Below are positions 105 through 17,963 of a DNA stretch of 18,171 nt, piece after piece; the first letter of the stretch is position 1, and every line of letters begins with the position of its first letter. Made by a program: the position numbers and the translations under genes. The notes beneath the pieces are model-generated. The model saw only the letters and a list, made by a program, of their open reading frames with translations, did no database searches and was not told the DNA's origin. The DNA comes from a bacterium (GTDB lineage: Bacteria > SZUA-182 > DTGQ01). The stretch lies in assembly GCA_023512255.1 (NCBI GenBank), contig JAILZY010000069.1, positions 1 through 18,171 on the forward strand. Reading direction: 5' to 3'.

Positions 105-1013
105 TTAAAATTTTAAACCCTCCAGAATTTCTCGATGGTGCTCCTCGTTGATTTGAACCAGGGGCAGGCTCACCTTTCGCTCTTCCCGGTCTAGGATTTC
201 TCCGAGGGGAGCGAAGCGAAAATCCTTGAGCAGATGGATGAGCTTTTTTTCCGTGGCTTCAAGATTAAGATAGTGCCGAAGCTGGTTGAGCGGCCCGATG
301 GGCAACCTGGGCTGTCCTGGATCAAGCTCCCAGGGATGAAGGTAGATAACCGCCGGGCGCATCTCCCGGCGATTCAACCGAAGCAAGGCCTTAGCGATGA
401 GAGCATAGGGCAGGAGGCGAAAATATCCCCCTCCGGCCACGGGAAAATTCTGTCCTAGAAAGCTGACAGTGGAAAGGGGAAATTCCCTAATGGATTTATT
501 CTTCGGGGTCCTGATCCGATAAGGGAAGCGAGGAGAGTCAGGGATACCGTAACGATCATGAAAAATGGGGAAGATGCTGGAATCATAGCGAAATCCCTGT
601 TCAATGAGGATATCGAGTGCCCAGAGGGTGTCCTGTCGGATGGAAAAGGTAGGGGCACGATATCCCCGGATAGACAGATGAGTGATCTGCTCTAGGATTC
701 GTCTGCCACGCTCAAGGTCGGCCCGAAATTCCTCCGGACTCTGGCGGTAGATATCCATATGTCGATATCCGTGGCAGGCAATTTCATGCCCTTCCTTCCT
801 TATCTCCTCTACCAGCTCTGGATATCGTTCCGCATTCCAGCCGAGAATAAAAAAGGTGGCCCGGGCTTGAAACTTCTGGAAAAGATCAAGGAGCCTGTGC
901 ACATTCTGCCTCAGGCGGCTCTCCTGCTTTGGCCATTCCTGAAACGGGACAACCGACTCCATGACCCTAGCCTGAAAGTGCTCTTCCATATCAATCGACA
1001 GGGCATTAATCAT
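105..1013 (-). CDS. Polysaccharide deacetylase, XrtA/PEP-CTERM-locus type
   Basis: A 302-residue NodB-type carbohydrate esterase family 4 protein predicted to remove N-acetyl groups from the exopolysaccharide made by this operon. The N-terminal metal-binding motif reads SIDMEEHF (D8), replacing the usual TFDDG as in the XrtA-linked subfamily. HGYRH at 81-85 gives the two zinc histidines (H81, H85). RGYRAPTFS near 114-122, YDSSIFP near 140 and LHPWELDPGQPR near 226-237 follow. The C-terminal part, after HPWE, matches the tail that marks this subfamily (DUF3473-like). No signal peptide is seen, as is usual for the subfamily. The start is fixed by an ATGA overlap with the stop of the upstream ATPase gene, so translation is coupled. 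It is the last gene of the operon inside the window. The family call is confident; the substrate is inferred from context. Confidence 0.93.
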   Translation of the reverse strand: MINALSIDMEEHFQARVMESVVPFQEWPKQESRLRQNVHRLLDLFQKFQARATFFILGWNAERYPELVEEIRKEGHEIACHGYRHMDIYRQSPEEFRADLERGRRILEQITHLSIRGYRAPTFSIRQDTLWALDILIEQGFRYDSSIFPIFHDRYGIPDSPRFPYRIRTPKNKSIREFPLSTVSFLGQNFPVAGGGYFRLLPYALIAKALLRLNRREMRPAVIYLHPWELDPGQPRLPIGPLNQLRHYLNLEATEKKLIHLLKDFRFAPLGEILDREERKVSLPLVQINEEHHREILEGLKF

Positions 1014-2152
1014 GACTTTTCCTCACCCCTTGTGCCCCCTTTAGTGATTTTCCCATGCAGGGCATTGATCATCAGCCAAAGAGAGACAATCTGCGACAAG
1101 ATAAGAACATCTTCCTGATGCTCTAGGCAGGATAAATCATCGGGAAAAGTGATTTTATTTGCTTCTGCTGCCCTAGCCATCCTCTGCTGACGCCAAGATC
1201 TATAGAGGGAGACTATTCCTTGCAAGATCAGCTCAACCTCATTGAATTGCTGGTTATTTGGTGAAAAATGTTCTATTCTCACACCTCTTGGTCTAAAAAG
1301 CCTTGAAAAGATGGATTTTTTCTCCTCTCGCTTTTTTTCTCTCCCCTTCAGATTAAGCTCCTCAAGAACCTGGTCAACTAGCCAAGCTCTGATGGTCTGT
1401 TTTTGCTCTACGTATCCGGCCAAAAGAGCTGCATCACAGGCGATGTTAATCAGCCGAGGGATACCACCTGAGGCCTGAAATATGCTCCTTACGGCTCCCT
1501 TGGAAAAGGGGTTGCGGGGGCAGCCAGCCACTGTCAGCCGGTGCTGAATGTAGTCTGAGGTTTCTTTTAGGCTCAAAGGTAGGATGTGGAACCAGAGGCT
1601 GACCCTTTGCCTGAGCTGGCAAAGATGAGGAGAGTCGAGCAGGTCTTGGAGCTGTAGCTGTCCAACAAGAATAATATGGATTAATTTCTCTTTTTCCGTC
1701 TCCAGGTTTGACAAAAGGCGAATCTCTTCAAGTGTCTGAATAGGCAGCCGCTGGGCTTCATCGATTATCAAGGCTACCCTTGATCCAGCCGCATATTGCC
1801 GGAGCAAATAGCCGTGGATCAAATCAAGCAGCTCAACCCTAGAGAGTGAGTCGCAAAAGCGGCGAATCTCATACTCTTTAACAATCATCCTAAGCAACTG
1901 ATCTGGCTCTGGGCTCGGATTAATAATATGGGCCACCCTGGCCTGGTCTTGGAAACGGTTAATAACTGCCTTGATCACTGTGGTCTTTCCTGCCCCGATT
2001 TCGCCAGTGATGACGGAAAATCCCTTTTGAGTCTCCAGGGAGTAGTGAAGATAGGCTATGGCCCTCTTATGAACGGAGCTCAAATAGAGAAATTGCGGAT
2101 CAGGAGTAAGACTAAAGGGATTTTCCGCTAACCGATAGAAGCTCTTGTACAT
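1010..2152 (-). CDS. XrtA-associated ExeA/GspA-like AAA ATPase
   Basis: A 380-residue P-loop ATPase of the ExeA family found in PEP-CTERM exopolysaccharide loci. The family N-terminus reads YRLAENPFSLTPDP. Walker A GEIGAGKTT is at 50-58, Walker B VALIIDEAQ is at 126-134 with D131 and E132, and a sensor-1-like ILVGQ is at 161-165. Its exact task in polysaccharide export is not established; relatives energise assembly of envelope secretion complexes. The ATPase core ends near residue 265. The remaining ~115 residues are basic and then form a helical tail (around 330-370) that I do not recognise and that looks long for the family. It follows the tyrosine-kinase gene after 27 bp and overlaps the deacetylase gene by 4 bp. 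The best purine-rich SD (AAGGA) lies about 12 nt before the ATG, which is rather far. Confidence 0.92.
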   Translation of the reverse strand: MYKSFYRLAENPFSLTPDPQFLYLSSVHKRAIAYLHYSLETQKGFSVITGEIGAGKTTVIKAVINRFQDQARVAHIINPSPEPDQLLRMIVKEYEIRRFCDSLSRVELLDLIHGYLLRQYAAGSRVALIIDEAQRLPIQTLEEIRLLSNLETEKEKLIHIILVGQLQLQDLLDSPHLCQLRQRVSLWFHILPLSLKETSDYIQHRLTVAGCPRNPFSKGAVRSIFQASGGIPRLINIACDAALLAGYVEQKQTIRAWLVDQVLEELNLKGREKKREEKKSIFSRLFRPRGVRIEHFSPNNQQFNEVELILQGIVSLYRSWRQQRMARAAEANKITFPDDLSCLEHQEDVLILSQIVSLWLMINALHGKITKGGTRGEEKS

Positions 2153-2179
2153 ATGGCTTAAGAATCCTTATATAATCCT

Positions 2180-2953
2180 CTAGTAGTAGTAATAATAACG
2201 AGAAGATAGGCGGTCCGTACTGTTTAGGACAATACCTATCAGATTAGCTTTCTTCAGTTTGGCCACGGCTGCCTCAAGGTCATTCATTCGGGTTTTCCCT
2301 GCTCTGGCCACCAGCAGCACACCATCTACCTTGAGCGAAAGAATAAGGGCATCGGTGAACTGGTTAATAGGGGGTGAATCAATGATGAGCAGCCGGTTTT
2401 GATACCTCTCTTTAGCCTCTTCAAGGAAAATAGACATGGTGCGACTGTTGATCAGCTCGGATGGGTTTTCGGGAGGCGGTCCTGCTGGCAACAGGCTGAG
2501 CTTTGGGATCGAGGTCTTGAGCAGAACCTGGGGCAGATCAACCTCATGGCGAAGAAAATTGGCCAGGCCGAAAGAAACCCTCTCTAGCCCTAGCATCTTA
2601 TGAACCTGTGGATTGCGCAGATCACAGTCAATCAGCAGGGCCGTCTCCTGTAAGCTTTGGGCAATAGAGATGGCCAGATTTACCGAGGTCGTGGTTTTCC
2701 CCTCTCCTGAGACCGCACTGGTAACTAGAACCAGCCGCTCCCCGTTCTGCTGGCTGGCGTTCAGAATCATGGTTCGCAGCAGCTTGTATTGCTCGAAGGC
2801 ATCGGTGCGATCCTCCATCATGGCCTGGATCCGAGGATCGAGCTCATGAAAATCAACGGATGGCTTGGGTGATTTTGGCCGTATGGCTGACAGAGCCTCA
2901 TTTTTTTTCCTCTCCCGGGCTGCTCGCTCAAGAGCCCGCTCAATAAAGCTCAT
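2180..2953 (-). CDS. Bacterial tyrosine autokinase (BY-kinase), XrtA-associated CpsD/CapB type
   Basis: A 257-residue cytoplasmic kinase that autophosphorylates a C-terminal tyrosine cluster and drives cycles of polymerisation and export with the membrane chain-length protein encoded just upstream. It has Walker A SAVSGEGKTT at 79-88, Walker A' ALLIDCDLRNP at 105-115 and Walker B LLIIDSPP at 188-195. The protein ends in five consecutive tyrosines (253-257) immediately before the TAG stop. A basic, helical N-terminus (MSFIERALERAARERKK) is typical of the XrtA-linked group. There is no membrane segment, so kinase and co-polymerase are separate polypeptides, unlike the fused Wzc of enterobacteria. 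The start is supported by AAGGGG about 9 nt upstream. Confidence 0.95.
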   Translation of the reverse strand: MSFIERALERAARERKKNEALSAIRPKSPKPSVDFHELDPRIQAMMEDRTDAFEQYKLLRTMILNASQQNGERLVLVTSAVSGEGKTTTSVNLAISIAQSLQETALLIDCDLRNPQVHKMLGLERVSFGLANFLRHEVDLPQVLLKTSIPKLSLLPAGPPPENPSELINSRTMSIFLEEAKERYQNRLLIIDSPPINQFTDALILSLKVDGVLLVARAGKTRMNDLEAAVAKLKKANLIGIVLNSTDRLSSRYYYYY

Positions 2954-2965
2954 GGTTGTTTTCCC

Positions 2966-2995
2966 CTTATCAATCTAGTACTTATCAATCTAATA
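2966..2995. repeat. 15-bp tandem repeat, two copies
   Basis: CTTATCAATCTAGTA (2966-2980) is followed directly by CTTATCAATCTAATA (2981-2995), with one mismatch. It lies in the 91-bp gap between the chain-length and kinase genes, just upstream of the kinase SD. A second short repeat, ATACCGAAA, occurs twice further into the same gap. No function is evident; it may simply be replication slippage. Confidence 0.7.
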
Positions 2996-3044
2996 CCGAA
3001 ATTATCGCTAATCCCATAGCAAAAGTTCTTATACCGAAAGTTCC

Positions 3045-4544
3045 TTAAAATAAGTTTCTCATCAAAGAAAAAAGAATAATGAGTATCCAAAAGATAACCA
3101 TTAGCCCCTGGAGTATCCGCTGGCGATTTTGCTGCCTTTTTTCTTCCAAAGTAAGCACCAGGGGAATATTAGCCACTACCGGGATGTGGAGATTGTCCTG
3201 AATGTCGCTCTCGTCCTTGACCGTGCGAAACAGATACTCAAAGCCGATCAGGGCTCCAAAACCTGCGGCCAAAGACAGGATGAGACAGACCAAGGTAATC
3301 TGCAAGGGATTATAAGCCACAGGTCGAAGGGGAAGACGAGCTGGATCTAGAATTTTAAACCGACTTTGCTGAGCACTCTTTTCCATCTCCTTGACCATGC
3401 GGATCTGAGCCAGTCGCTTGAGCAGAACTTCGTAGGCTTCCTCGTTGACCTTTTTATCCCTGGTCAGTCTGGCCAGCTCCTCTTCCTGAGCAGGGATTGA
3501 GGCTGCCCGGGCAGCATAGCGCTCGATATCCTTTTCCAACTCCTGCCGCCTGGTATGGAGCAGATTGATTTCAACCTCGATGTTGTTGATCGATTCCTTG
3601 AGCTTTTGATAGATCGGATTGATGATCGAGGTTTCCTGGGAAGGGTCTATCCCATCAAATTTTTGTTTGCTTTTTTGCTGAGCTGCCCAGGCCTTTTCTT
3701 TTTCCAGCTCGGCCTTCAGTTTGATGACCTCAGGGTAGCGTTCCGTATACCGAGAGAGCAATTCAGCCAATTGAATCTGAAGCTGGTTGATCCGGTTTTC
3801 TCTCTGAACAAAGGCCACGATCGAAGGCTGCTCCTCAGCCAATTGCCTTTGCAGTATTTGCCGCTTTTGTTCCAGTTCCCTAGCTTTCAATTTGACCTCA
3901 ACTAATTCATCCCGAAGCTTTTGAAGCTGAGCAAGATTGATATTAGCCTCACCCGGCATCTGCCCAATATTTTTCTCCTTAAAGGCTCTGAGAGCCTTTT
4001 CCGAGCTCTCCAGTTTTTCCTTATATTCTCTCAACTGCTTTTGGATAAACTCATACTCAACTTGGGCCTGGCTTCCGGTAAGCTCTAGGTTTTCCTCGAT
4101 GAACATCCTGGCCAGGGTATTGGTAATGTCCCTGACCCGCTGCGGCTCCTCTCCCGTGTAGGTAATGGTGAATAACCCGGTGCCTGGGCTGTCGATAATG
4201 ATGTTATCCCTGATCTGAGCGATCAATTGTTCAAGCTCAAAAGAATTTTGAGCGCGCTGGTTGAGCCCAAGGCGCTCAATTACCCGACTGAGGCGGCTAT
4301 TGCTAACTATCAGGTTGCGGATAGTCTTTATCTGCTCTGGATCGAGGCTGGTCTGTTTATTCTGAGCTAGGGGATTTTCTATGGTTTTGATTTCAAGCAT
4401 GATCGTGCACTGCGACCGATAACGCTTGGGCAGCAAGAAACTGCCGACAATGGAAAGAAGGAGACATAGCGAGAAACAGAAAAAAAAGATCTTTTTGTGA
4501 TAGCGAAAAATCTGGATATAATACTCTAGCGTCTCTTTCCCCAT
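3045..4544 (-). CDS. Exopolysaccharide chain-length determinant (Wzz/PCP family, XrtA system)
   Basis: A 499-residue inner-membrane polysaccharide co-polymerase that sets polymer length and partners the tyrosine kinase. One transmembrane helix is at about 18-38, followed by the Wzz domain. A long periplasmic coiled-coil section, very rich in Lys, Glu and Gln, covers roughly 165-400. A proline-rich motif (DPARLPLRPVAYNP, about 399-412) leads into a second helix at about 415-438. A third hydrophobic segment at 478-496 lies at the extreme C-terminus, after a short cytoplasmic stretch, as in the XrtA-linked version of the family. No Walker motif follows, consistent with the kinase being a separate protein. 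GGGG 7 nt before the ATG serves as SD. Length and layout match the family. Confidence 0.95.
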   Translation of the reverse strand: MGKETLEYYIQIFRYHKKIFFFCFSLCLLLSIVGSFLLPKRYRSQCTIMLEIKTIENPLAQNKQTSLDPEQIKTIRNLIVSNSRLSRVIERLGLNQRAQNSFELEQLIAQIRDNIIIDSPGTGLFTITYTGEEPQRVRDITNTLARMFIEENLELTGSQAQVEYEFIQKQLREYKEKLESSEKALRAFKEKNIGQMPGEANINLAQLQKLRDELVEVKLKARELEQKRQILQRQLAEEQPSIVAFVQRENRINQLQIQLAELLSRYTERYPEVIKLKAELEKEKAWAAQQKSKQKFDGIDPSQETSIINPIYQKLKESINNIEVEINLLHTRRQELEKDIERYAARAASIPAQEEELARLTRDKKVNEEAYEVLLKRLAQIRMVKEMEKSAQQSRFKILDPARLPLRPVAYNPLQITLVCLILSLAAGFGALIGFEYLFRTVKDESDIQDNLHIPVVANIPLVLTLEEKRQQNRQRILQGLMVIFWILIILFSLMRNLF

Positions 4545-4642
4545 CTTTTATCCCCACAAAGTTTTATCACCGCAAAGCCCGCCTGCTTCTCCTTCGGGCA
4601 AATCCACTCTCTCTGCACAGACAAATCTAAAATTCACAAAAT

Positions 4643-5557
4643 TCACAGCAAGGATTGTGGAACAAAAATCGTATCCCCCGGCATCAGGGGTATATTCAGC
4701 TCGGATTTTGCTTTTTTTAATAAAGCCTTGAAATCTACCTCAATAATCTGCGGTTTGGCTATCCCAGCCCTTGTGGCCGCAGCCTGAGCTTGGCTAAAGC
4801 GCCGAGCAATCTTGATCCGATCCATTTTGGCAAAATCGGTGAATCCCCCAGCCTCCACAATAGCATCCATGATGGTCAACTCCTTGCGGAAAGGAATGAC
4901 TTTGGGGCTTTTGACCTCACCGACTATGGTTATCCTACTGCTGAAATTGTCAGGGATGAAAATCGTGTCATCAGCCTTAAGCTCAATATTCTGGCTCAGG
5001 TCCCCCTCTTTCAACAGTTGATAAAAATTCAACTCAACAGAGCGGCCATTGCGGATCAGCGAGGCTCGGGTAAGATCAGCCGTCTCCAAAACCCCTCCGA
5101 TGAGCGATAGGAGCTGCAAGATAGTTGTCCTCCGCTTTAAGGTTACCATGCCTGGCCTTTGAACCTCCCCAAAGACATAGACCTTGAAGCTATTGATATT
5201 GGTAACTGTTACCGTAACTGCCGGCTGATTTATGAATAAGCCTAACTGTTGCTGAATACTTTCTGCCATCTTTTCCGGCGTAAGGCCAGCGGCCTGAATA
5301 TCTCCCAGCAGCGGGTAGGAGATTTTCCCATCTGGACGAACAACCACAGATCGGGTAAGCTGGGTATTGTCCCAGACCGAAATGAAAAGCTCATCCTCAA
5401 CCCCGATCAGATACGGCTCTTCAGCCGCCAGAGGACAAGAATACCTGCCTATAGGCACTACACCCATAGACACCAAACCGATCACTAGACAGCTGATGAT
5501 CGCCCACCGACTCTTAAAACCCGACACTTTCCTCACCCTCTTAATCTGAATTTCCAT
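4643..5557 (-). CDS. Polysaccharide export protein (Wza-like, Poly_export + SLBB), XrtA system
   Basis: A 304-residue exported protein predicted to form the periplasmic/outer-membrane conduit for the exopolysaccharide. A basic N-terminus and hydrophobic helix (about 18-36) form a signal sequence. Cys41 in YSC does not fit a good lipobox, so cleavage by signal peptidase I near LAA|EE (around 45) is as likely as lipidation. The Poly_export domain starts at YLIGVEDELFISVWDN (49-64) and runs to about 118. Two SLBB-like domains follow, starting near VYVFGEVQRPG (around 127) and ITIVGEVKSP (around 209), each ending in an ADDTIFIP or PGDTIFVP strand. It lacks the extra C-terminal helix of E. coli Wza. 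It sits between the initiating transferase (61-bp gap) and the chain-length gene (98-bp gap). Confidence 0.94.
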   Translation of the reverse strand: MEIQIKRVRKVSGFKSRWAIISCLVIGLVSMGVVPIGRYSCPLAAEEPYLIGVEDELFISVWDNTQLTRSVVVRPDGKISYPLLGDIQAAGLTPEKMAESIQQQLGLFINQPAVTVTVTNINSFKVYVFGEVQRPGMVTLKRRTTILQLLSLIGGVLETADLTRASLIRNGRSVELNFYQLLKEGDLSQNIELKADDTIFIPDNFSSRITIVGEVKSPKVIPFRKELTIMDAIVEAGGFTDFAKMDRIKIARRFSQAQAAATRAGIAKPQIIEVDFKALLKKAKSELNIPLMPGDTIFVPQSLL

Positions 5558-5618
5558 AATAAGTTCTCAAACCTCCCATATCCCTTAACCAGATACCCCA
5601 AAATGCCACACTCCCTTT

Positions 5619-7001
5619 TTAGAGAGCTCCCTTCCTAAAGAGAATGATATTGATGGTTTTTAAAGCAATAAAAAAATCAAGGACAAGCGAGCTGTGCTTA
5701 ATGTAGAACAGATCATAGCCGAGTTTTTCTCCGCTCTCCCGCACCGTAGCACAGTAGCGGTAGTTTACAGCCGCCCACCCAGTAATTCCAGGCTTGACCA
5801 CAAGTCGCTGTTTGTAATAAGGGATAACCCTATCCAGTTGCTGAACGAAAAATGGCCGCTCCGGGCGAGGGCCCACCAGACTCATCTCTCCCTTGAAAAC
5901 ATTGATCAGTTGAGGAAGCTCATCAATCCTGGTCTGTCTCAAAATACGGCCAACGCGGGTAATCCGCCGATCATTTTTTCTCGTCCAGATCGGACCGCTC
6001 CTCTGCTCTGCATCGACCCTCATGGTTCGAAACTTATACAGCTTGAAAATTTCCTCCCCCTCGCCCACTCTTTCCTGTGTGAAGAGAATCGGGCCCGGCG
6101 AATCCAACCGAATCAGGATGGCAGCGAGCAGAAGAATCGGAGCAGTGAGCACTAGCAGCAGAATCGAAAGAATAATGTCTACCAGTCGCTTGACCTTTCG
6201 GATCATACCCCGGCGATGAAAACCGCCGGTAAACAAAAGCCAACTGGGACGAAGCCGATTGATTAGAATCTTGCCGGTGAGCTGCTCGTAAAAATCAGGG
6301 GCATCATAAATTTTAACCCCTTTGAGTTTATAGTCTAAAAATTGCTCTGATGAAAAGCTCTCACGGCGCTCATCCAGGGCAATAACCATAATCTGAGGTC
6401 GGTATTGATTGACGATTTTAGGCAAATCTCCAATCTTTCCCAAAACCTCAACCCCATCATCTTCCACCTCTGTCGAAAATATATCCGAGGCTGATTCCAC
6501 TATACCCAAAAACCGATACTTTCCCACCGGCTTATGCTCCTTCAGGGCCTGAGCCAATTTTCGACCATTGAAGGTATGGCCGACAATGAGAACTCGGCGG
6601 GGAGAGCTAATCAGGGGAAGGAGCTGGCCAGCAGCCAGTCGCCAGAGGAGTACAAAGAGCATGACCATTGCCAAGGGAGGAAGAAATCGTACCAGCAGGC
6701 TAAAATCGGCTCTGCCCAAAGAGTAGACAAGCAAGAGGGCAAATGGTATACTGAAGGCAGCCGCGATTCTCTGAATAAGTAAGGTCGGCTTTCGGCAAAC
6801 CCTGACGCAGAATAGATCACAGACAAAAAAGAGCAGCAGGTAAAGCGGCACAAGCCGGGAAAGAGTCCACAGCCAGAGTAGCCGCCTGCCAGTAGTGTAT
6901 CCTCCGAACCAAACCTGGAGGGATAAAAAGATGATCGATAGATCACCGATCAGATACAGAAAGCAATCTGTTGGTGTATTTGAAAGCAGATAGTTTTTCA
7001 T
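5619..7001 (-). CDS. Initiating sugar-phosphate transferase (undecaprenyl-phosphate glycosylphosphotransferase, XrtA-associated)
   Basis: A 460-residue polytopic membrane enzyme that transfers a sugar-1-phosphate to undecaprenyl phosphate, the first step of repeat-unit synthesis. Four to five transmembrane helices occupy about 10-135. A Rossmann-like region follows, with RVLIVGHTFNGRKLA near 139-153. The catalytic Bac_transf domain begins at a further helix, KRLVDIILS near 270. It contains SPGPILFTQERVG, FKLYKFRTM, TRIDELPQLINVFKGEMS, LVGPRPERP and PGITGWAAVNYRY in the expected order. The sugar specificity cannot be read. It is the first gene of the six-gene operon; no strong SD precedes the ATG. 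A 125-bp gap separates it from the divergent amidase gene and holds the only obvious control region. Confidence 0.95.
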   Translation of the reverse strand: MKNYLLSNTPTDCFLYLIGDLSIIFLSLQVWFGGYTTGRRLLWLWTLSRLVPLYLLLFFVCDLFCVRVCRKPTLLIQRIAAAFSIPFALLLVYSLGRADFSLLVRFLPPLAMVMLFVLLWRLAAGQLLPLISSPRRVLIVGHTFNGRKLAQALKEHKPVGKYRFLGIVESASDIFSTEVEDDGVEVLGKIGDLPKIVNQYRPQIMVIALDERRESFSSEQFLDYKLKGVKIYDAPDFYEQLTGKILINRLRPSWLLFTGGFHRRGMIRKVKRLVDIILSILLLVLTAPILLLAAILIRLDSPGPILFTQERVGEGEEIFKLYKFRTMRVDAEQRSGPIWTRKNDRRITRVGRILRQTRIDELPQLINVFKGEMSLVGPRPERPFFVQQLDRVIPYYKQRLVVKPGITGWAAVNYRYCATVRESGEKLGYDLFYIKHSSLVLDFFIALKTINIILFRKGAL

Positions 7002-9225: not shown

Positions 9226-9798
9226 ATGAAAGTGCAAAGCCTATTCAAACAAAGTGTTATCTGGATGCTTATTTCAATTCTTATCCTACTCTTCAGCACT
9301 CCCCTGGTCCAGGCAAAAGATGATCAGGCCTCTCCCCTGTTCAAAGAGTCGCTCCATGAGACGCTCAAGGAGTTCGATCACGGGACGGTAAAAATTGATG
9401 TCGATCGTGGGCCTCTTGGACTAAGCCGCGAGGTGAAAGTTGAGATTGAAAAAACTCCAGGCAACAGGGAAATAACTGTGGAAATTGAAAAGAAACCCTG
9501 CGGCAGAGAAGTAAAAATAGAAATCGACCATAAACCCTGCAATCAAAACGAGCGATTCCCAGGTCGGGGCGACTTTCCGATCATCTGCCCTACCCTCCGA
9601 GGCAAGACCTGTCAGGGAGTAAGGTGCTACGGCTTTCCTACCCTGGTGGGAAATACGTGCAGCACTACCTGTGGAGTTCGCTCTACCTGCAGCAGTGGCC
9701 GCTTCTGTCGCATCTACCCTTCACCATGCGCCAAGGCGGATAGCCCTCGCCAATTGGCTAAAGGGAGTGAGAAGCCGCTCCTCTTTGACCTCTTTTGA
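9226..9798 (+). CDS. Secreted cysteine-rich protein with 13-residue repeats, unknown function
   Basis: A 190-residue protein that I do not recognise. A strong signal peptide (residues 1-30, hydrophobic core about 11-28, cleavage likely after VQA) sends it to the periplasm or cell surface. Next comes a charged strand-like repeat: GTVKIDVDRGPLGLS (53-67), REVKVEIEKTPGN (68-80), REITVEIEKKPCG (81-93) and REVKIEIDHKPCN (94-106). The alternating V/I with E/K/D pattern is typical of amphipathic beta strands with a turn at the Pro. The C-terminal half carries most of the ten cysteines (92, 105, 121, 129, 134, 145, 149, 155, 161, 168); the even number suggests disulfides. AAAGGAG 7 nt before the ATG fixes the start. 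It lies 133 bp upstream of the two large membrane-protein genes on the same strand and may share their transcript. Confidence 0.88.
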   Translation: MKVQSLFKQSVIWMLISILILLFSTPLVQAKDDQASPLFKESLHETLKEFDHGTVKIDVDRGPLGLSREVKVEIEKTPGNREITVEIEKKPCGREVKIEIDHKPCNQNERFPGRGDFPIICPTLRGKTCQGVRCYGFPTLVGNTCSTTCGVRSTCSSGRFCRIYPSPCAKADSPRQLAKGSEKPLLFDLF

Positions 9799-9810
9799 TT
9801 GCTATTTATA

Positions 9811-9850
9811 AAAATAGCTAAAAAATCTCAAAAATAGCTAAAAAGTCTCA
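9811..9850. repeat. 20-bp tandem repeat, two copies
   Basis: AAAATAGCTAAAAAATCTCA (9811-9830) is followed directly by the same 20-mer with one change, G for A at 9845. The 5' part also forms a small hairpin with GCTATTT (9801-9807). It lies between the cysteine-rich protein gene and the following terminator-like hairpin. No function is evident. Confidence 0.75.
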
Positions 9851-9853
9851 AAG

Positions 9854-9885
9854 CCCCCGAGGTGGTAGTGTTCCCGCCTCGGGGG
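9854..9885 (+). terminator. GC-rich hairpin downstream of the cysteine-rich protein gene
   Basis: CCCCCGAGG (9854-9862) pairs with CCTCGGGGG (9877-9885), extended by a G-T and two G-C pairs to about 12 bp. There is no T run after it. It may stop only part of the transcription, letting some messages continue into the two membrane-protein genes, or it may protect the 3' end of the upstream message. Confidence 0.55.
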
Positions 9886-9917
9886 ATCACACCGTTGACT
9901 CAAGGGGCCTTGAAATT

Positions 9918-9923
9918 AAGGAG
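9918..9923 (+). promoter_or_regulatory. Ribosome binding site that decides a TTG start
   Basis: AAGGAG ends 8 nt before TTG at 9932. No ATG or GTG in this frame lies at a suitable distance, so this site is the reason for accepting TTG as the start of the 868-residue protein. Directly upstream is the small dyad CAAGG-GG-CCTTG (9901-9912). Confidence 0.7.
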
Positions 9924-9931
9924 CAGACTTT

Positions 9932-12538
9932 TTGAAAACTTCCCCTCATTCCCTTCTGAATCATCATCGGCGCCAGGATCAAAACCACACAAAGCAGCAG
10001 AAGAGGGCATTTAAACTGCTCAGCCACTGCTCCCGATCTCCTGCAGACAGCCAAAAGGGGAGTAGGGCATTTGCTCCTGTGGCTCTGTTTTTAGCTCTTC
10101 TGACCACTAATCTAAGCACTCTGTTCTATTTCGGACAGCCATTTGTCCGGCTCACCTCCTGTGTTCTCGGACTGATGCTGATTGCCTCCATCATTCAGGC
10201 CGCCTGGCGAGTTCAGAAAAGGAGTTTATGGCCGGATTTTCTCTTGACCGCGGTAGGCTTTGCTTTCATGCTGCTTTTCCTTGATTCAAAAGAAGCGGGC
10301 TTTATCGGTCTTATCTGCGCCCTGGGAGTGGCTCTTACTCTTTTTGCTGATGAAGCTAAGGATGAGATTTACGCTCTCCTCACTGCCAGCGGGCTGGTAG
10401 CCTTATTCGATTATGGATACAGCCACATCTGGCTGATCTGGTATGGGGTAAGATGGGCCAATCGCCTGATGATGCGCCTGATCGAAATTCTAACCAGACA
10501 GCCCATGCCCTTTGGTCATCATGCTAGCGGCTTTTTTATCCTGATCCCCTTCATCGCCTATCTTGTGGCTTTCATCCTCCATGCCCAAAGAGCAGGCCAC
10601 AGAGCATGGCGAAAAAACCCTGCGGCCAAGGCGGCCTCGGCTTTGGACCAGGAGGCTGGCATAATCATGAGGCTGGAAAACCCAGCGGCTATGAGTACCT
10701 TGGCTCTTTGGTTTGACAGTCTGCTCATGCTCCTTAGCCTCCTTGCCTGCCAAGCGCTCTATCTTATCATCCAGCAGGCTATTTTCTCTAGGCTTCGATT
10801 TAGGGTATATCAGGCTCTGTTTCAACTCTCTCCATTTGAGACTCACTGGTTTGCCTTCTTGATATTTCTGGTCCCCCTTTGGCTCTATAAAACAAGGCTC
10901 AAAGGCAAGTTAGCCCTCTCTCAGGGTAGAAAGCTCACGGGGGACTGCTCATGCTCCTGCTGCTGCGGCGGCATGAGCCTAGGGAGGCGGATTGTCGCCT
11001 TCGCCTTTGTCCTCCTTATCTTACTGATGGTTCAGGACCGGCGGGCCATCATCCCCTGCGGCCGTGGCCGCGTGGCTTTGGACCGTCAAAGGAGGGTTGT
11101 GATTTACGACAATCTGGACTGGTCGCGGCCTAAATTTGGCTACTATGGGGATCGAAGCGGAGGGATGTTTGGTAATTTGCCTGACTTTTTAAGCTCTCTT
11201 GGGTTCCTTGTGCAGCTTGAGAAAGAGCTTGATGACAGTAAGCTTCAAGGGGTTGATCTGCTAGTGGTCATAAACCTCATGGAACGATTCAAGGCGCCGG
11301 TCAAGGAGGCGATCTTCCGCTACCTCCTAGCCGGAGGAAGCCTGCTGGTCATGGGAGATCATACCGGCCTTGGCTTCATCCGTGAGCCCTTAAACGACCT
11401 AATAGCCCCGCTGGGGATCAAGTTGCAGTTTGACAGCGCCTGCCCCCTTGTCCCTTCCTGGCAAAATTGCATGGAAATTCGCCCCCACAGGATAACCAAA
11501 CATCTGACTACGGAAAATGATCTCCAGATCTGGATTGGCGCCTCATTGGAAATTCGCCCACCGGCTCGGCCAATTCTGATCGGGGTGAGGGCATTTTCAG
11601 ATGCAGGCAACAAAGATAATCCCCAGGAAGGCTTTCTGGGCGACCTTCAATATCAAAGATCAGAGCAGTTAGGGGATGTGGTTCTAGTAGCCGAATCTCG
11701 GCTGGGTAAGGGAAAGATTCTGGTATTTGGTGATACCTCTAGCCTACAGAATGGGAGTCTGCCCTACAGCTACCAATTTATCCAGCAGATCTTTTACTGG
11801 CTGACGGAAAAGGCGAGTGATTTATCCCTGGCTGATTTATTCCTGGCTAAAACGCCGCGGGTGCAGGCTTATCATCAGCCTGATGAGCTTTCCACCAACC
11901 AGGAAAGCCCCAGGAGGGGAGCCTATAGGATAGCCTATATTGATAGTTCTCATGGTGAATTGTTTGACTTGAGTGGCTGGCAAAAAAACTCGATTGACGG
12001 GCTAGCCTATAACCTTATGAGAAACCGCTATACTCCCTTTATCACCAGAAGGCTTGATTCCACCCTGCTGGATAATTCAACCCTTTGGGTGTTTATCAGC
12101 CCTACCAAAAGCTTTTCCTCGAAAGAGCGAAAGCTTCTGCACCGTTTTATGGCTCAAGGGGGGATGATTCTCTGGACCTCAGGCTGGATGGTTCGTGAGG
12201 CCAGCCTCTCTTTCCTTGAAGACCTTAGTCTTTCAATTATCAATATTCCCCTTGGCCCGGTTAGGGAACGCTATGGAAATTATGAGGTCCAGTTTCAGGA
12301 TGCCTGGCCGATTCAAATTGAGCATCAGGCAGAGAACAAAACGAGGGTTTTGCTCCAGCGGGGCGGCTATCCACTGGTTGTTTTCCAAAGGTATGGCCGA
12401 GGTGGCTTGGTGCTTATCTCAGACACTCGCTTTGTGCTCAACCATAATCTTGAGCATATCAATAACTTCTACCATGAGGGAAACATTCTTTTTCTGCGGG
12501 ATATCATCGAGAAAATCATCTCCGGAGAGCGGCTATGA
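9932..12538 (+). CDS. Large membrane protein with two C-terminal GATase1-like domains (paralogue 1)
   Basis: An 868-residue protein that I can describe but not name. After a basic 45-residue N-terminus, about eight or nine transmembrane helices lie between 47 and 369 (for example 50-66, 75-93, 104-118, 199-217, 262-282, 304-319, 353-369). A cluster CSCSCCC (339-345) lies in the loop before the last helix. The rest looks extracytoplasmic or peripheral. Domain 1 (about 385-625) contains VDLLVVIN, FRYLLAGGSLLVMGDHTG and ILVFGDTSSLQNG. Domain 2 (about 665-862) contains LWVFISPTKSFSSKE, FMAQGGMILWTSG and GGLVLISDTRF. These resemble the glutamine-amidotransferase-like fold of DUF4350/GldG-type proteins. 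The nucleophilic Cys position is occupied by DHT or TSG, so amidotransferase activity is unlikely. It starts at TTG and overlaps the next gene by ATGA. Confidence 0.85.
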   Translation: MKTSPHSLLNHHRRQDQNHTKQQKRAFKLLSHCSRSPADSQKGSRAFAPVALFLALLTTNLSTLFYFGQPFVRLTSCVLGLMLIASIIQAAWRVQKRSLWPDFLLTAVGFAFMLLFLDSKEAGFIGLICALGVALTLFADEAKDEIYALLTASGLVALFDYGYSHIWLIWYGVRWANRLMMRLIEILTRQPMPFGHHASGFFILIPFIAYLVAFILHAQRAGHRAWRKNPAAKAASALDQEAGIIMRLENPAAMSTLALWFDSLLMLLSLLACQALYLIIQQAIFSRLRFRVYQALFQLSPFETHWFAFLIFLVPLWLYKTRLKGKLALSQGRKLTGDCSCSCCCGGMSLGRRIVAFAFVLLILLMVQDRRAIIPCGRGRVALDRQRRVVIYDNLDWSRPKFGYYGDRSGGMFGNLPDFLSSLGFLVQLEKELDDSKLQGVDLLVVINLMERFKAPVKEAIFRYLLAGGSLLVMGDHTGLGFIREPLNDLIAPLGIKLQFDSACPLVPSWQNCMEIRPHRITKHLTTENDLQIWIGASLEIRPPARPILIGVRAFSDAGNKDNPQEGFLGDLQYQRSEQLGDVVLVAESRLGKGKILVFGDTSSLQNGSLPYSYQFIQQIFYWLTEKASDLSLADLFLAKTPRVQAYHQPDELSTNQESPRRGAYRIAYIDSSHGELFDLSGWQKNSIDGLAYNLMRNRYTPFITRRLDSTLLDNSTLWVFISPTKSFSSKERKLLHRFMAQGGMILWTSGWMVREASLSFLEDLSLSIINIPLGPVRERYGNYEVQFQDAWPIQIEHQAENKTRVLLQRGGYPLVVFQRYGRGGLVLISDTRFVLNHNLEHINNFYHEGNILFLRDIIEKIISGERL

Positions 12539-14937
12539 GCTTTTGTCTATGGTTGCTGCCGTGGCTTCTTTCTTCAGGCTGGCTATTTCTGCTGCCGATC
12601 TTTGTGCCACCTGCGCCTCTTTGGGCCGCAGGATCAGTGACTTTAGCCATCAGCCTGGTATGGATGATCTGCCTAGCCAAGGGGAGAGGGCCATGCTCAA
12701 GGTCAGGCTCAGCGCTTTTTCCGCTGGCCGATTCTCTTATTCTCTGTGGCCTAATCTTTCTAGCTCAAGCAGCTATTCTGCCGCTTGGCTACTTTCTTTC
12801 GGCTCGCTATCATCGCCTTCCGTTTCTCCACCCCCTGCTCTATCCACTGCTAAAAGCCACTGGGTCTTGGATCAGCCTGAGTGATGGCGCATTTTTCATT
12901 CAGACAGTGAGCCGGACCCTAAAGGTCTCGATCAGCCTGGAGCAGCTTGGCCTTTTCCCATTTTTACTTACCCTGGCTGGCGGTCTGATGCTTCTTTTAG
13001 CCACTGGCCAGGGAAGAGGCAGGATGGGAAAATTCTTCCTCATCCTCTGTGGCTACTGTGTGGTGCGGTTTCTCATGCTTTTTCTCATTAGCCTTGAAAT
13101 CGAAACTCAGGTTATTTTCTGGTCATCACTGATCACTGCGGTCAGCTTTTTCCCCAAGAGCATAATCCTGGCTAAAATTTTGCCCATCTCCTCTGCGGGG
13201 CAGGGCCTATATGTCATCTATCCCTCTCTCGGTAGCCTAAAAGCCTACCGTAGGGTAGGCAGCCTGCTTTTTCTTGGCATGCTGTGTCTGGTCTTGGCCA
13301 TTGGTTTTAAGGATCCGGGCGCAAAAAAGCCTGGTCGGATCCTCATTGATGAGGCTCACAGCGACTGGGAGTGGACAGATGAGAAATTCGACACCAAGCT
13401 CTTTGGCAAAAGAAGCGATTATAACTTTTACTGCCTGAGTGAGTATCTAACCTATTTCTATCCTCAGGTGAAGAAAAACTATCAACCCTTAAGCCGGCAT
13501 ACTCTGGCTGAGGTTGATGTCCTGATCCTAAAGACCCCGACTCAGGAATACTCAGAGGATGAGATCTTGGCTATTGAGGATTTTGTGGCCAAAGGAGGTG
13601 GCCTTTTCCTCATCAGTGATCATACCAATGTGTTTGGCATGAGTACCTATCTCAATAAGGTGGCTAAAAAGTTTGGCTTGAGATTTCGCTATGATGTTAC
13701 CTATGATCTGCCGACCTATCAACTCTCTCTCTATCGCCCGCCTCGCCTATTACCTCATCCGGTGGTTCAGCATGTGCCCCTCTTTCTTTTTGGCTCATCC
13801 TGTACCCTGGCTATTCCACCGACAGCCTCATCAGTCATAACCGGCTATGGATTGCGAAATCACTACCTTGACTATTCCCAGAAAAATTTTTTCCCAATTC
13901 CCGAAGAGGACTTTGATTATGAATTCGGGCTTTTTATCCAAAGTGCAGCCGTAGAATACCGACAAGGGAGAGTATTGGCCTACACTGACAGTACCTGCTT
14001 TTCCAACTTCTTTATGTTTATCCCAGGAAAACCTGAGCTGCTTCTTGGCTCCATAGAGTGGCTCAACCGGAAAAACAGATATCGGCTAGCTAACCTTCTC
14101 TTTCTCCTAGCAGGGGCTTGCTGCCTCTTCGGCCTGGCCATTGTTTGGCGGCCAAAGCGGGCTGATTTTCTCGGCTACTTACTCACCTTTGGCCTTCTTG
14201 GGGTGGTTTTAGGAATTTCGGCTAGCCACCTGCTGAGCCAGAAAAATTATCAGCTTCCAAAGCCTAGGAAAGATTTCTTTCAGATAGCTCTAGAATCTGA
14301 GCACTCGACCTCTTTTCTCCCCACAAGCCGCCTGGCTGATAGTCGGGATAAAAGTTTTCTTACCTTTTTTGTCTGGATCCAGCGTCTTGGATATGTTCCC
14401 TGTCTAAAACCCAGCCTCGATGAGGCCATACGGTGCGGTAAAGTGGTGGTGATCATCGATCCTAAAAAAGAGTTTAGCTCAAAGGAGGTCTTAAAGGTAA
14501 AAAGCTATCTTCGCCAAGGAGGCTGCCTACTTCTCCTAGACAGCCCCAAAAACCGCGCCTCATCAGCCAATCAAATCTTGAAAACCTTTGATCTTAGGAT
14601 TGACCATCAGTCTATTGTCAAAGGGGAAATATTTGATCAGCGAACTGGCGCGGCCCTGGGAGAATTTGACCAAGCCTGGCAGATCAAAGGCGGCAGCCCC
14701 CTTCTGACTGACGGCCAGGGCAGGGCTGTTTTGGCGGTCAAACAGTGCGGTGCAGGATTGGTGGCTGTTTTTTCTGCCTCACACCTTTTCCGGGATGAAT
14801 CCCTAGGCTCTACCAGCTCGGTTCCAAATGAATACCAGCAATGGTTAAGCAGCCTGGAATTTTGGTTATTCGAGAGCCTGGCCAAAAAGGAATTCGTCCC
14901 TTATGCCTCACAAGGTGCGGCCACTCCTCATCAATAA
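12535..14937 (+). CDS. Large membrane protein with two C-terminal GATase1-like domains (paralogue 2)
   Basis: An 800-residue partner of the preceding protein. The N-terminal membrane part has about seven helices (for example 5-24, 31-48, 66-89, 138-156, 166-186, 192-214, 242-258). Domain 1 (about 266-510) begins GRILIDEAHSDWEW and contains VDVLILKTPTQEYSEDE, FVAKGGGLFLISDHTN and RVLAYTDSTCFSN. Two further helices (about 519-537 and 546-565) separate it from domain 2 (about 600-780), which has VVVIIDPKKEFSSKE and LRQGGCLLLLDSP. Matching positions with paralogue 1 (VD.L, GG.L....DHT, the shared FSSKE and QGG) show that the two arose by duplication. Again no GxCxG nucleophile is present, so a binding or scaffolding role is more likely than catalysis. 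Its ATG overlaps the upstream TGA, so the pair is translationally coupled and probably forms a complex. Confidence 0.87.
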   Translation: MSFCLWLLPWLLSSGWLFLLPIFVPPAPLWAAGSVTLAISLVWMICLAKGRGPCSRSGSALFPLADSLILCGLIFLAQAAILPLGYFLSARYHRLPFLHPLLYPLLKATGSWISLSDGAFFIQTVSRTLKVSISLEQLGLFPFLLTLAGGLMLLLATGQGRGRMGKFFLILCGYCVVRFLMLFLISLEIETQVIFWSSLITAVSFFPKSIILAKILPISSAGQGLYVIYPSLGSLKAYRRVGSLLFLGMLCLVLAIGFKDPGAKKPGRILIDEAHSDWEWTDEKFDTKLFGKRSDYNFYCLSEYLTYFYPQVKKNYQPLSRHTLAEVDVLILKTPTQEYSEDEILAIEDFVAKGGGLFLISDHTNVFGMSTYLNKVAKKFGLRFRYDVTYDLPTYQLSLYRPPRLLPHPVVQHVPLFLFGSSCTLAIPPTASSVITGYGLRNHYLDYSQKNFFPIPEEDFDYEFGLFIQSAAVEYRQGRVLAYTDSTCFSNFFMFIPGKPELLLGSIEWLNRKNRYRLANLLFLLAGACCLFGLAIVWRPKRADFLGYLLTFGLLGVVLGISASHLLSQKNYQLPKPRKDFFQIALESEHSTSFLPTSRLADSRDKSFLTFFVWIQRLGYVPCLKPSLDEAIRCGKVVVIIDPKKEFSSKEVLKVKSYLRQGGCLLLLDSPKNRASSANQILKTFDLRIDHQSIVKGEIFDQRTGAALGEFDQAWQIKGGSPLLTDGQGRAVLAVKQCGAGLVAVFSASHLFRDESLGSTSSVPNEYQQWLSSLEFWLFESLAKKEFVPYASQGAATPHQ

Positions 14938-17291: not shown

Positions 17292-17963
17292 ATGATACGC
17301 TGCTTTATCCAGAAAAACAGATTGAAGATGCTCCTCCCTGGTATTGTGGTCTTGGTCATTTTAGGCACAATTGAATTTTCTCCTCTTGCGATCGCCAATG
17401 CCCAGGGCCTGTTTGGACTTCCCTTTTGGAATAGCTATCTAGCTTTGGCGCCACGCTATCCTTACGATTTTTTATCACCCCTTCTAGGCCGCTGGACAGC
17501 AGGCAGTGGGCTGCTTCCTTCGGCCTTGTTGGCAGGAAACTCATCCGCTACCTCTCCCCTCCGATTTGCTCACGCCTCTATTCAGGGAGTAACCACGATC
17601 TTTATTCCTCCATCAGCCACAAGCGTGAAGCTATCAGTCAAACCTTCTACCGGCACTACCGGCTCAAGTATCCCAAGCATCAAATTGTCTGCCCTTGTGC
17701 CACCACTTACGGTCTATATTTATCCGACAGGTTCTCTACCTCCGACCCTGGTAACAACTCCCACGGTAGCTACTCCAGTAACTACTCCTTTAACCACACC
17801 GGCAACTACTCTCCCCACCTCTACCACTTCGGCTCCGGCAGTGATCTCGGGTTTGGGAGGCCTCCAGCAGGTATTCCCTTCACCCCTCCGACCGACATTT
17901 TCACCTTACGGGTCGGTGTTTCAGCCTCTTTGGCCGGCAGCTTCTCTTTATCCTATTCTATAG
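17292..17963 (+). CDS. Secreted Thr/Pro-rich surface protein, unknown function
   Basis: A 223-residue protein of no family I recognise. The signal peptide (1-37, hydrophobic core about 13-28, cleavage likely after ANA) is followed by an aromatic/Pro-rich segment (40-70) and a Ser/Thr-rich region with short strands (95-145). A low-complexity linker of TTP/TPT units covers about 149-182, and a Pro/aromatic C-terminus ends in YPIL. Such linkers are often O-glycosylated or span the surface layer. There is no C-terminal PEP-CTERM motif, LPXTG motif or hydrophobic anchor, so it is not an exosortase substrate of the usual kind. The start follows GAGG at 9 nt, with an in-frame stop (TAA, 17283) just upstream. 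The sigma-54 promoter about 340 bp upstream is its likely control. Confidence 0.85.
   Translation: MIRCFIQKNRLKMLLPGIVVLVILGTIEFSPLAIANAQGLFGLPFWNSYLALAPRYPYDFLSPLLGRWTAGSGLLPSALLAGNSSATSPLRFAHASIQGVTTIFIPPSATSVKLSVKPSTGTTGSSIPSIKLSALVPPLTVYIYPTGSLPPTLVTTPTVATPVTTPLTTPATTLPTSTTSAPAVISGLGGLQQVFPSPLRPTFSPYGSVFQPLWPAASLYPIL

Follow-up and report, generated by a model that had tools for sequence, protein, structure and literature searches.

An 18,171 base pair (bp) contig from a bacterium of the GTDB lineage SZUA-182; DTGQ01 (JAILZY010000069.1), here called the window, carries a three-gene locus that encodes a short, cysteine-rich secreted protein and two large membrane proteins, A and B. The association of A and B with proteins of regular cysteine spacing suggests, with a probability of roughly one half, that the pair constitutes an inner-membrane machine for Sec-exported proteins of this kind, and the best reading of its role is that of a complex that sorts or matures surface proteins rich in thiols. 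A more specific proposal falls a little short of even odds, namely that this is an undescribed system in which a membrane pair of GIFT-domain proteins with degenerate exosortase-like cores reads an SPLF motif at the mature N-terminus of surface proteins and acts on their regularly spaced cysteines by processing, pairing or attachment, one pair serving many substrates.

Open reading frame (ORF) calls placed the three genes on the same strand, with A and B overlapping by the ATGA at 12535-12538, in agreement with the original prediction of co-directional genes with such an overlap, which had been made from the sequence alone.

9226..9798, + strand: cysteine-rich secreted protein of 190 amino acids (aa), proposed substrate of A and B (ORF, N-terminal hydrophobic segment, ten cysteines)
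9932..12538, + strand: membrane protein A, 868 aa, TTG start behind AAGGAG; transmembrane core, GIFT domain 1, GIFT domain 2 (Pfam; adjacency to B)
12535..14937, + strand: membrane protein B, 800 aa; exosortase-like transmembrane core, GIFT domain 1, transmembrane hairpin, GIFT domain 2 (Pfam, alignment, AlphaFold2)

Recurrence of the A-B pair with cysteine-repeat proteins

The genomes compared were assemblies resembling metagenome-assembled genomes (MAGs), and relatives of A and B were found by searches with B. At all 24 loci where both genes were nearly complete, A was followed by B, adjacent and on the same strand, often with a 4-base overlap. A search of genome contigs for relatives yielded one only, L076, from the MAG 'Pseudomonadota bacterium CSMAG_150'. 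A and B are paralogues with 21% identity over approximately 550 aa (blastp, E 1e-16), as expected of the duplicated membrane proteins that had been proposed. A tree of 48 sequences divided cleanly into A and B halves, each the mirror image of the other (Mantel r 0.965; 0 of 2000 permutations), which indicates that the duplication is old and that the two genes were inherited or transferred together. The pairing appears obligate; the heteromeric complex that had been predicted is something we infer.

A and B recurred as neighbours of each other in the window's own family and order and in several phylum-level groups. Co-occurrence of all three genes had been set beforehand as the test of a system, and it was recurrent both within the family and across phyla. 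Most lineages have a cysteine-repeat protein, a proposed substrate, beside the pair; such proteins adjoined it in the window and at L064, L065, L066 (a broken copy), L070, L120, L121, L122 (N-terminus interrupted by a stop), L123, L125, L142, L145, L147, L150, L167, L168 and L170. These partners are Sec-exported proteins with the motif '(S/T)P[LA][FY]xxxL' at the mature N-terminus, followed by cysteines at a fixed period of 5, 6, 7 or 10; the 190-aa protein of the window is a short member of the class. Hexads such as TCPGTTTCPGSFTC were found at L120, L121, L123, L142, L145, L167, L168 and L170 (up to 158 cysteines in 1088 aa), pentads of the form GSxCx at L122, L147 and L150, heptads (TDPQWCA) at L070 and decads (TNPxFDPxCx) at L125, where 145 cysteines occur in 1657 aa. 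The period tracked the clade of the A-B pair, being 5 in L122/L147/L150, 6 in the L120, L121 and L168 groups and 7 and 10 in L070/L125.

The motif that follows the signal peptide reads SPLFKESLHETLKEF in the window, SPLFQQSLQTSIDRF at L170, SPAFGAMLDEAIARL at L121, SPLFHARLDETLADW at L147 and TPLFDYQTRSTVERF at L125. A hidden Markov model (HMM) of the motif was trained only on 20 substrates of the G166/G402 groups, comprising both dispersed and A-B-adjacent cysteine-repeat proteins. When run over 2468 ORFs, it ranked the proteins of L066, L064, L065, L120 and the window next after the training members and ahead of every unrelated ORF.

Of 50 genomes screened with the hexad profile (A6), 26 have A-B and 24 do not; 15 of the former and none of the latter were positive. 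In a second, independent sample of 386 genomes, long uninterrupted hexad matches occurred only in G143, G145, G166 and G280, all of which possess A-B. Four other hexad matches were rejected as noise, three for internal stops (G036, G103 and G136) and one for a short frame with the repeat NSGLFC (G096). In G166, G280, G397, G399, G400, G402 and G403, hexad proteins were encoded far from A-B or on separate contigs, and in the last five of these they were spread over several contigs. Nearly all fetched hexad proteins with a visible N-terminus bore SPL[FY] or SPAF close to it, and the maximum number of cysteines in one ORF was 230. One group combines many scattered cysteine-repeat proteins per genome with a single detected A-B pair; single-substrate genomes, that of the window included, keep the cysteine gene beside the pair. 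This many-to-one pattern may be likened to sortase/substrate systems. In rhombosortase systems, as with A-B, dedicated versions keep a gene link that is lost in multi-substrate genomes, where substrates are scattered (PMC3237569).

Each of the nine B-containing loci of the G166/G402 group (L124 and L166-L173) encodes, next to B, one or two small membrane proteins that bear a CcmH-like domain with a rearranged cysteine pattern (RCP..CHC). The best of these scored 26.8 bits against the Pfam CcmH cut-off of 25. These proteins, which resemble the thiol redox protein CcmH of cytochrome c maturation and are absent from the window, point to thiol handling.

Domain architecture of A and B

11084..11806, + strand: GIFT domain 1 of A, approximately residues 385-625, GDHT at the nucleophile position (Pfam, alignment)
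11924..12517, + strand: GIFT domain 2 of A, approximately residues 665-862 (DUF4350 match to 693-842; alignment)
12826..13179, + strand: membrane core of B, residues 98-215; helix, beta-hairpin and three transmembrane helices (hhalign, AlphaFold2 secondary structure)
13327..14073, + strand: GIFT domain 1 of B, residues 265-513, its most conserved part (alignment, structure match)
14083..14247, + strand: transmembrane hairpin of B between the GIFT domains, residues 517-571 (AlphaFold2 model)
14272..14889, + strand: GIFT domain 2 of B, residues 580-785 (AlphaFold2 model)

Both proteins exceeded the Pfam gathering cut-offs for PF09822 (34.7 bits; A 35.2, B 59.3) and PF23355 (27.2 bits; A 30.9, B 41.8), with GIFT matches in two stretches of each. 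The 15 relatives of B tested all matched Pfam GIFT families as well (E <= 1). In the AlphaFold2 model of B (predicted local distance difference test, pLDDT, 83; predicted template modelling score 0.84) the transmembrane hairpin splits two extramembrane alpha/beta domains. The model of the first matched the GIFT domain of IFT52 (VIA Z 22.8, root mean square deviation 2.6) and also OST48/Wbp1 (Z ~18), site-one protease (Z 19) and GH42-type accessory domains. None of the 29 A and B proteins aligned has the cysteine nucleophile of class I glutamine amidotransferases, their GIFT domain 1 reading G/S-[DE]-H-[TS] at this position; amidotransferase-like folds lacking the nucleophile had indeed been predicted.

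GIFT domain 1 of B contains the conserved stretches HSDWEW, KTPT, DHTNVFG, HP, NFF and TDSTCFSNF. Its invariant residues (H275, W278, E279, K333, H363, H408, D485 and N491) suggest that the domain binds or converts something and is not simply a spacer. The positive-inside rule predicts an outward orientation for the two GIFT domains of B. In A of the window, no hydrophobic transmembrane segment lies between the GIFT domains (11780-11910, residues ~617-660); such a segment is present in A of L064, L065, L066, L067, L068 and L069, and its loss from the window is a lineage-specific deletion.

The four extramembrane domains resemble known GIFT proteins (GldG, IFT52, OST48/Wbp1; PF09822, PF23355, DUF4350) in fold and sequence. 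A and B differ from these in that each has a transmembrane core bearing two GIFT domains, in being always paired and in having cysteine-repeat partners, and they lack the ATP-binding cassette (ABC) ATPase, intraflagellar transport or STT3 partners of the settings known for GIFT proteins.

Sugar binding has been proposed for GIFT domains, including that of OST48/Wbp1 (PMC7226087). An unlikely alternative is accordingly that A and B form a glycan-handling complex, with GIFT domains that bind a lipid-linked or polymeric sugar, and either glycosylate the cysteine-repeat protein or couple it to exopolysaccharide. The structural matches of B to OST48/Wbp1 and GH42-type accessory domains are consistent with this, as are threonine being the residue most often preceding cysteine in the hexads, and the XrtA-type or other exopolysaccharide genes that adjoin the module at three loci of the f1 family (the window, L065 and L066). 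However, no glycosyltransferase was a constant neighbour, and neither L064 nor any other locus examined, those of other phyla included, had exopolysaccharide genes close to the pair. Since it is limited to three f1-family loci, the exopolysaccharide link raised by the original prediction looks local, and exopolysaccharide assembly was rejected as the core function. Nor is a GIFT fold proof of sugar binding, because GIFT/ThuA-like folds also serve IFT52, site-1 protease and GldG.

Membrane core of B and its possible relation to exosortases

Around their active-site cysteine, exosortases have a helix and a beta-hairpin followed by transmembrane helices. The modelled core of B shows this order of elements. 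When its profile was compared with those of archaeosortase B/XrtH/XrtX-like proteins encoded by relatives, the two aligned in the expected register with an hhalign score of 33.7 (pairwise E 5e-4), whereas 20 block-shuffled profiles scored no more than 17.9 and reversed profiles no more than 16.5. No B protein matched Pfam PF09721, and the core had no match in Pfam or NCBIfam. At the catalytic positions of exosortases, the cysteine was variable, the histidine unconserved and the arginine present in most, not all, B proteins. A distant relationship between the core of B and exosortases is likely but unproven. The Foldseek/VIA list for B contained no exosortase for the core, which is not evidence against the relationship because matches to the GIFT domain fill the list.

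Such a core raises the rather improbable explanation of degenerate exosortase-like anchoring, in which the core of B (and of A) captures the substrate and performs other chemistry or docking only. Besides the profile match and the predicted order of elements, the many-to-one pattern, as in sortase systems (PMC3237569), speaks for it; exosortase/PEP-CTERM and archaeosortase systems are likewise many-to-one membrane machines. Against it stand the poorly conserved catalytic positions, the failure of any B protein to match PF09721 and substrates without a C-terminal tail of motif, transmembrane segment and basic residues. The cysteine protein of the window has no tail of PEP-CTERM type, its single hydrophobic segment being N-terminal. 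A-B further differs from exosortases in a signal near the mature N-terminus and in two large paralogues in place of one small enzyme.

Proteins of approximately 630-660 aa with an archaeosortase B/XrtH-like N-terminal domain (E-C-T-G) were encoded at L089 (G000:C45) and L092 (G001:C17); each has a second similar transmembrane block and a C-terminal part that appeared SPFH/band-7-like by eye.

Proposed function and novelty

If A and B are a sorting or maturation complex, cleavage of the signal peptide would place the motif near the new N-terminus, at the outer face of the inner membrane, where the exosortase-like membrane cores and outward GIFT domains of an A-B heteromer may capture it. A-B would then sort or mature the cysteine-repeat protein before its delivery to the surface. 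The most likely step would be to hold the thiols in their proper state, or to guide how they pair or become attached. The window would represent a 'dedicated' form of the system, in which a single short substrate is encoded beside its machine.

Several observations weigh against this role. No catalytic step was identified, the core of B lacks the exosortase catalytic cysteine and histidine and its profile match is weak, and the exosortase profile did not match the core of A. The early-branching pairs of L068 (G002) and L069 (G004) have no cysteine-repeat neighbour and none adjoins A-B at L148, L171 or L172. Because the compared genomes are related, the counts do not represent independent events. 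The motif, which is short, is conserved only in part in the L070/L125 and SPAF groups, and the CcmH-like neighbours are limited to one group. A 251-aa hexad fragment of ten rows yielded no fold in AlphaFold2 (pLDDT 33).

A poorly tenable alternative makes A and B accessory subunits of a GldG-like ABC-type exporter that secretes the cysteine-repeat protein. Their best named relatives are PF09822, an ABC-type auxiliary family, and GldG, but against the GldG equivalog TIGR03521 (cut-off 389.85 bits) A scored 14.0 and B 26.7 bits. GldG-type partners, an ABC ATPase and a GldF-like permease, were missing from the window and were not constant neighbours at the other loci, and the substrates bear N-terminal signal peptides. 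That A-B performs a general envelope task with the cysteine-repeat proteins as passengers, a chance or historical neighbourhood, is hardly credible: the pairs of L068 and L069 would fit it, but co-occurrence in scattered genomes, the shared motif and a cysteine period that follows the A-B clade argue otherwise.

The references for novelty were Pfam, NCBIfam, PADLOC, PDB and the open text of PubMed Central (PMC). No model in Pfam, NCBIfam or PADLOC describes either the full-length pair or the motif, and the PADLOC defence models gave no match. No characterised transporter or enzyme profile fitted the whole of A or B; a match of both to a well-characterised family of this kind had been named beforehand as a result that would refute the prediction. 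Open PMC text held no paper on the cysteine periodicity or on GIFT proteins with cysteine-repeat partners; subscription literature may describe them. The partners had no family models beyond some type IX secretion system (T9SS)/FlgD-type tails, an Extensin_1 match at L125 and weak matches of pentads to CefA, the 'Cys-every-fifth RiPP peptide' (NF038108). The pentad proteins of L122, L147 and L150 reached at most 16.8 bits against the NF038108 cut-off of 30, and the window protein and the hexad, heptad and decad members did not match this model; the substrates also differ from CefA in being Sec-exported and paired with A-B. Por-type tails of T9SS/FlgD-type sorting end the substrates of L070, L120 and L207, and are not found in the window protein or most others.

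Cysteine-periodic surface proteins would through this system be tied to a specific machine, by way of a short motif and two genes. If true, exported proteins would be handled by means of an N-terminal rather than a C-terminal signal, and the widespread, poorly understood GIFT domain would acquire a testable role outside gliding, cilia and N-glycosylation.

The cysteine-rich protein gene and its hairpin

9331..9378, + strand: predicted mature N-terminal motif SPLFKESLHETLKEF, residues 36-51 (motif HMM ranking)
9388..9546, + strand: four REVKxEIE-type repeats, residues ~55-107 (sequence)
9586..9729, + strand: cysteine tail PTLxGxTCxGxxCxxFPTLxGNTCSTTCGxRSTC.., the conserved part of the protein (alignment)
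9854..9885, + strand: RNA hairpin with a 12-bp stem between the cysteine gene and A, a possible attenuator (fold z -4.8)

The original prediction of a secreted protein with four repeats and ten cysteines proved accurate, with a hydrophobic segment typical of signal peptides at the N-terminus and exactly ten cysteines, all within residues 92-168. Threonine precedes most cysteines of the tail, as in the hexad proteins. Orthologues occupy the same place at L064 and L065, and a broken copy at L066. The REVKxEIE-type repeats are not essential to the family, since the L065 relative lacks them and keeps the cysteine tail.

Hairpins of unrelated sequence were predicted between the cysteine gene and A in the window (9799-9931), L064 (8483-8573) and L065 (14451-14562), with z-scores against shuffles of -4.8, -3.9 and -5.8, respectively; that of L065 has a 23-bp stem followed by U's. 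The equal expression predicted from the ATGA overlap is plausible for A and B, but the cysteine gene need not match the level of A, because a strong hairpin separates them in three relatives. The hairpin could permit expression of the substrate gene above that of the A-B machine.

At L066 (13633-14288, - strand) the N- and C-terminus of the cysteine gene lie in different frames, and at L122 (6150-6690, + strand) an in-frame TAG follows the SPLFSA motif; both genes are seemingly broken, through assembly error or decay. A disulfide beta-solenoid for the hexad proteins, an idea drawn from the cysteine spacing of a beetle antifreeze protein, was left without support by the unfolded AlphaFold2 fragment.

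Neighbourhood of the module

To the left of the module lies an exopolysaccharide locus of the XrtA/PEP-CTERM type (105-7001, - strand), for which the best models were TIGR03006, 03007, 03013, 03015, 03018 and 03027, with 03015 and 03018 under their cut-offs. A full exosortase is encoded elsewhere in the genome (G000:C20). The gene to the right encodes a GAF/HD-GYP/PilZ protein; an HD-GYP neighbour is common to the window and L064 only, and the link proposed from it was not borne out. A secreted, Pro/Thr-rich protein of 223 aa at 17292-17963 (+ strand) had no Pfam match.

At L069, the genes upstream of A-B encode secreted repeat proteins rich in tyrosine, asparagine and proline. In the pentad group, a small hydrophobic protein is encoded between the cysteine gene and A (L147, 8786-9106; L122, 6774-7121), and another lies just upstream of A at L149 (4852-5277), where the contig ends.

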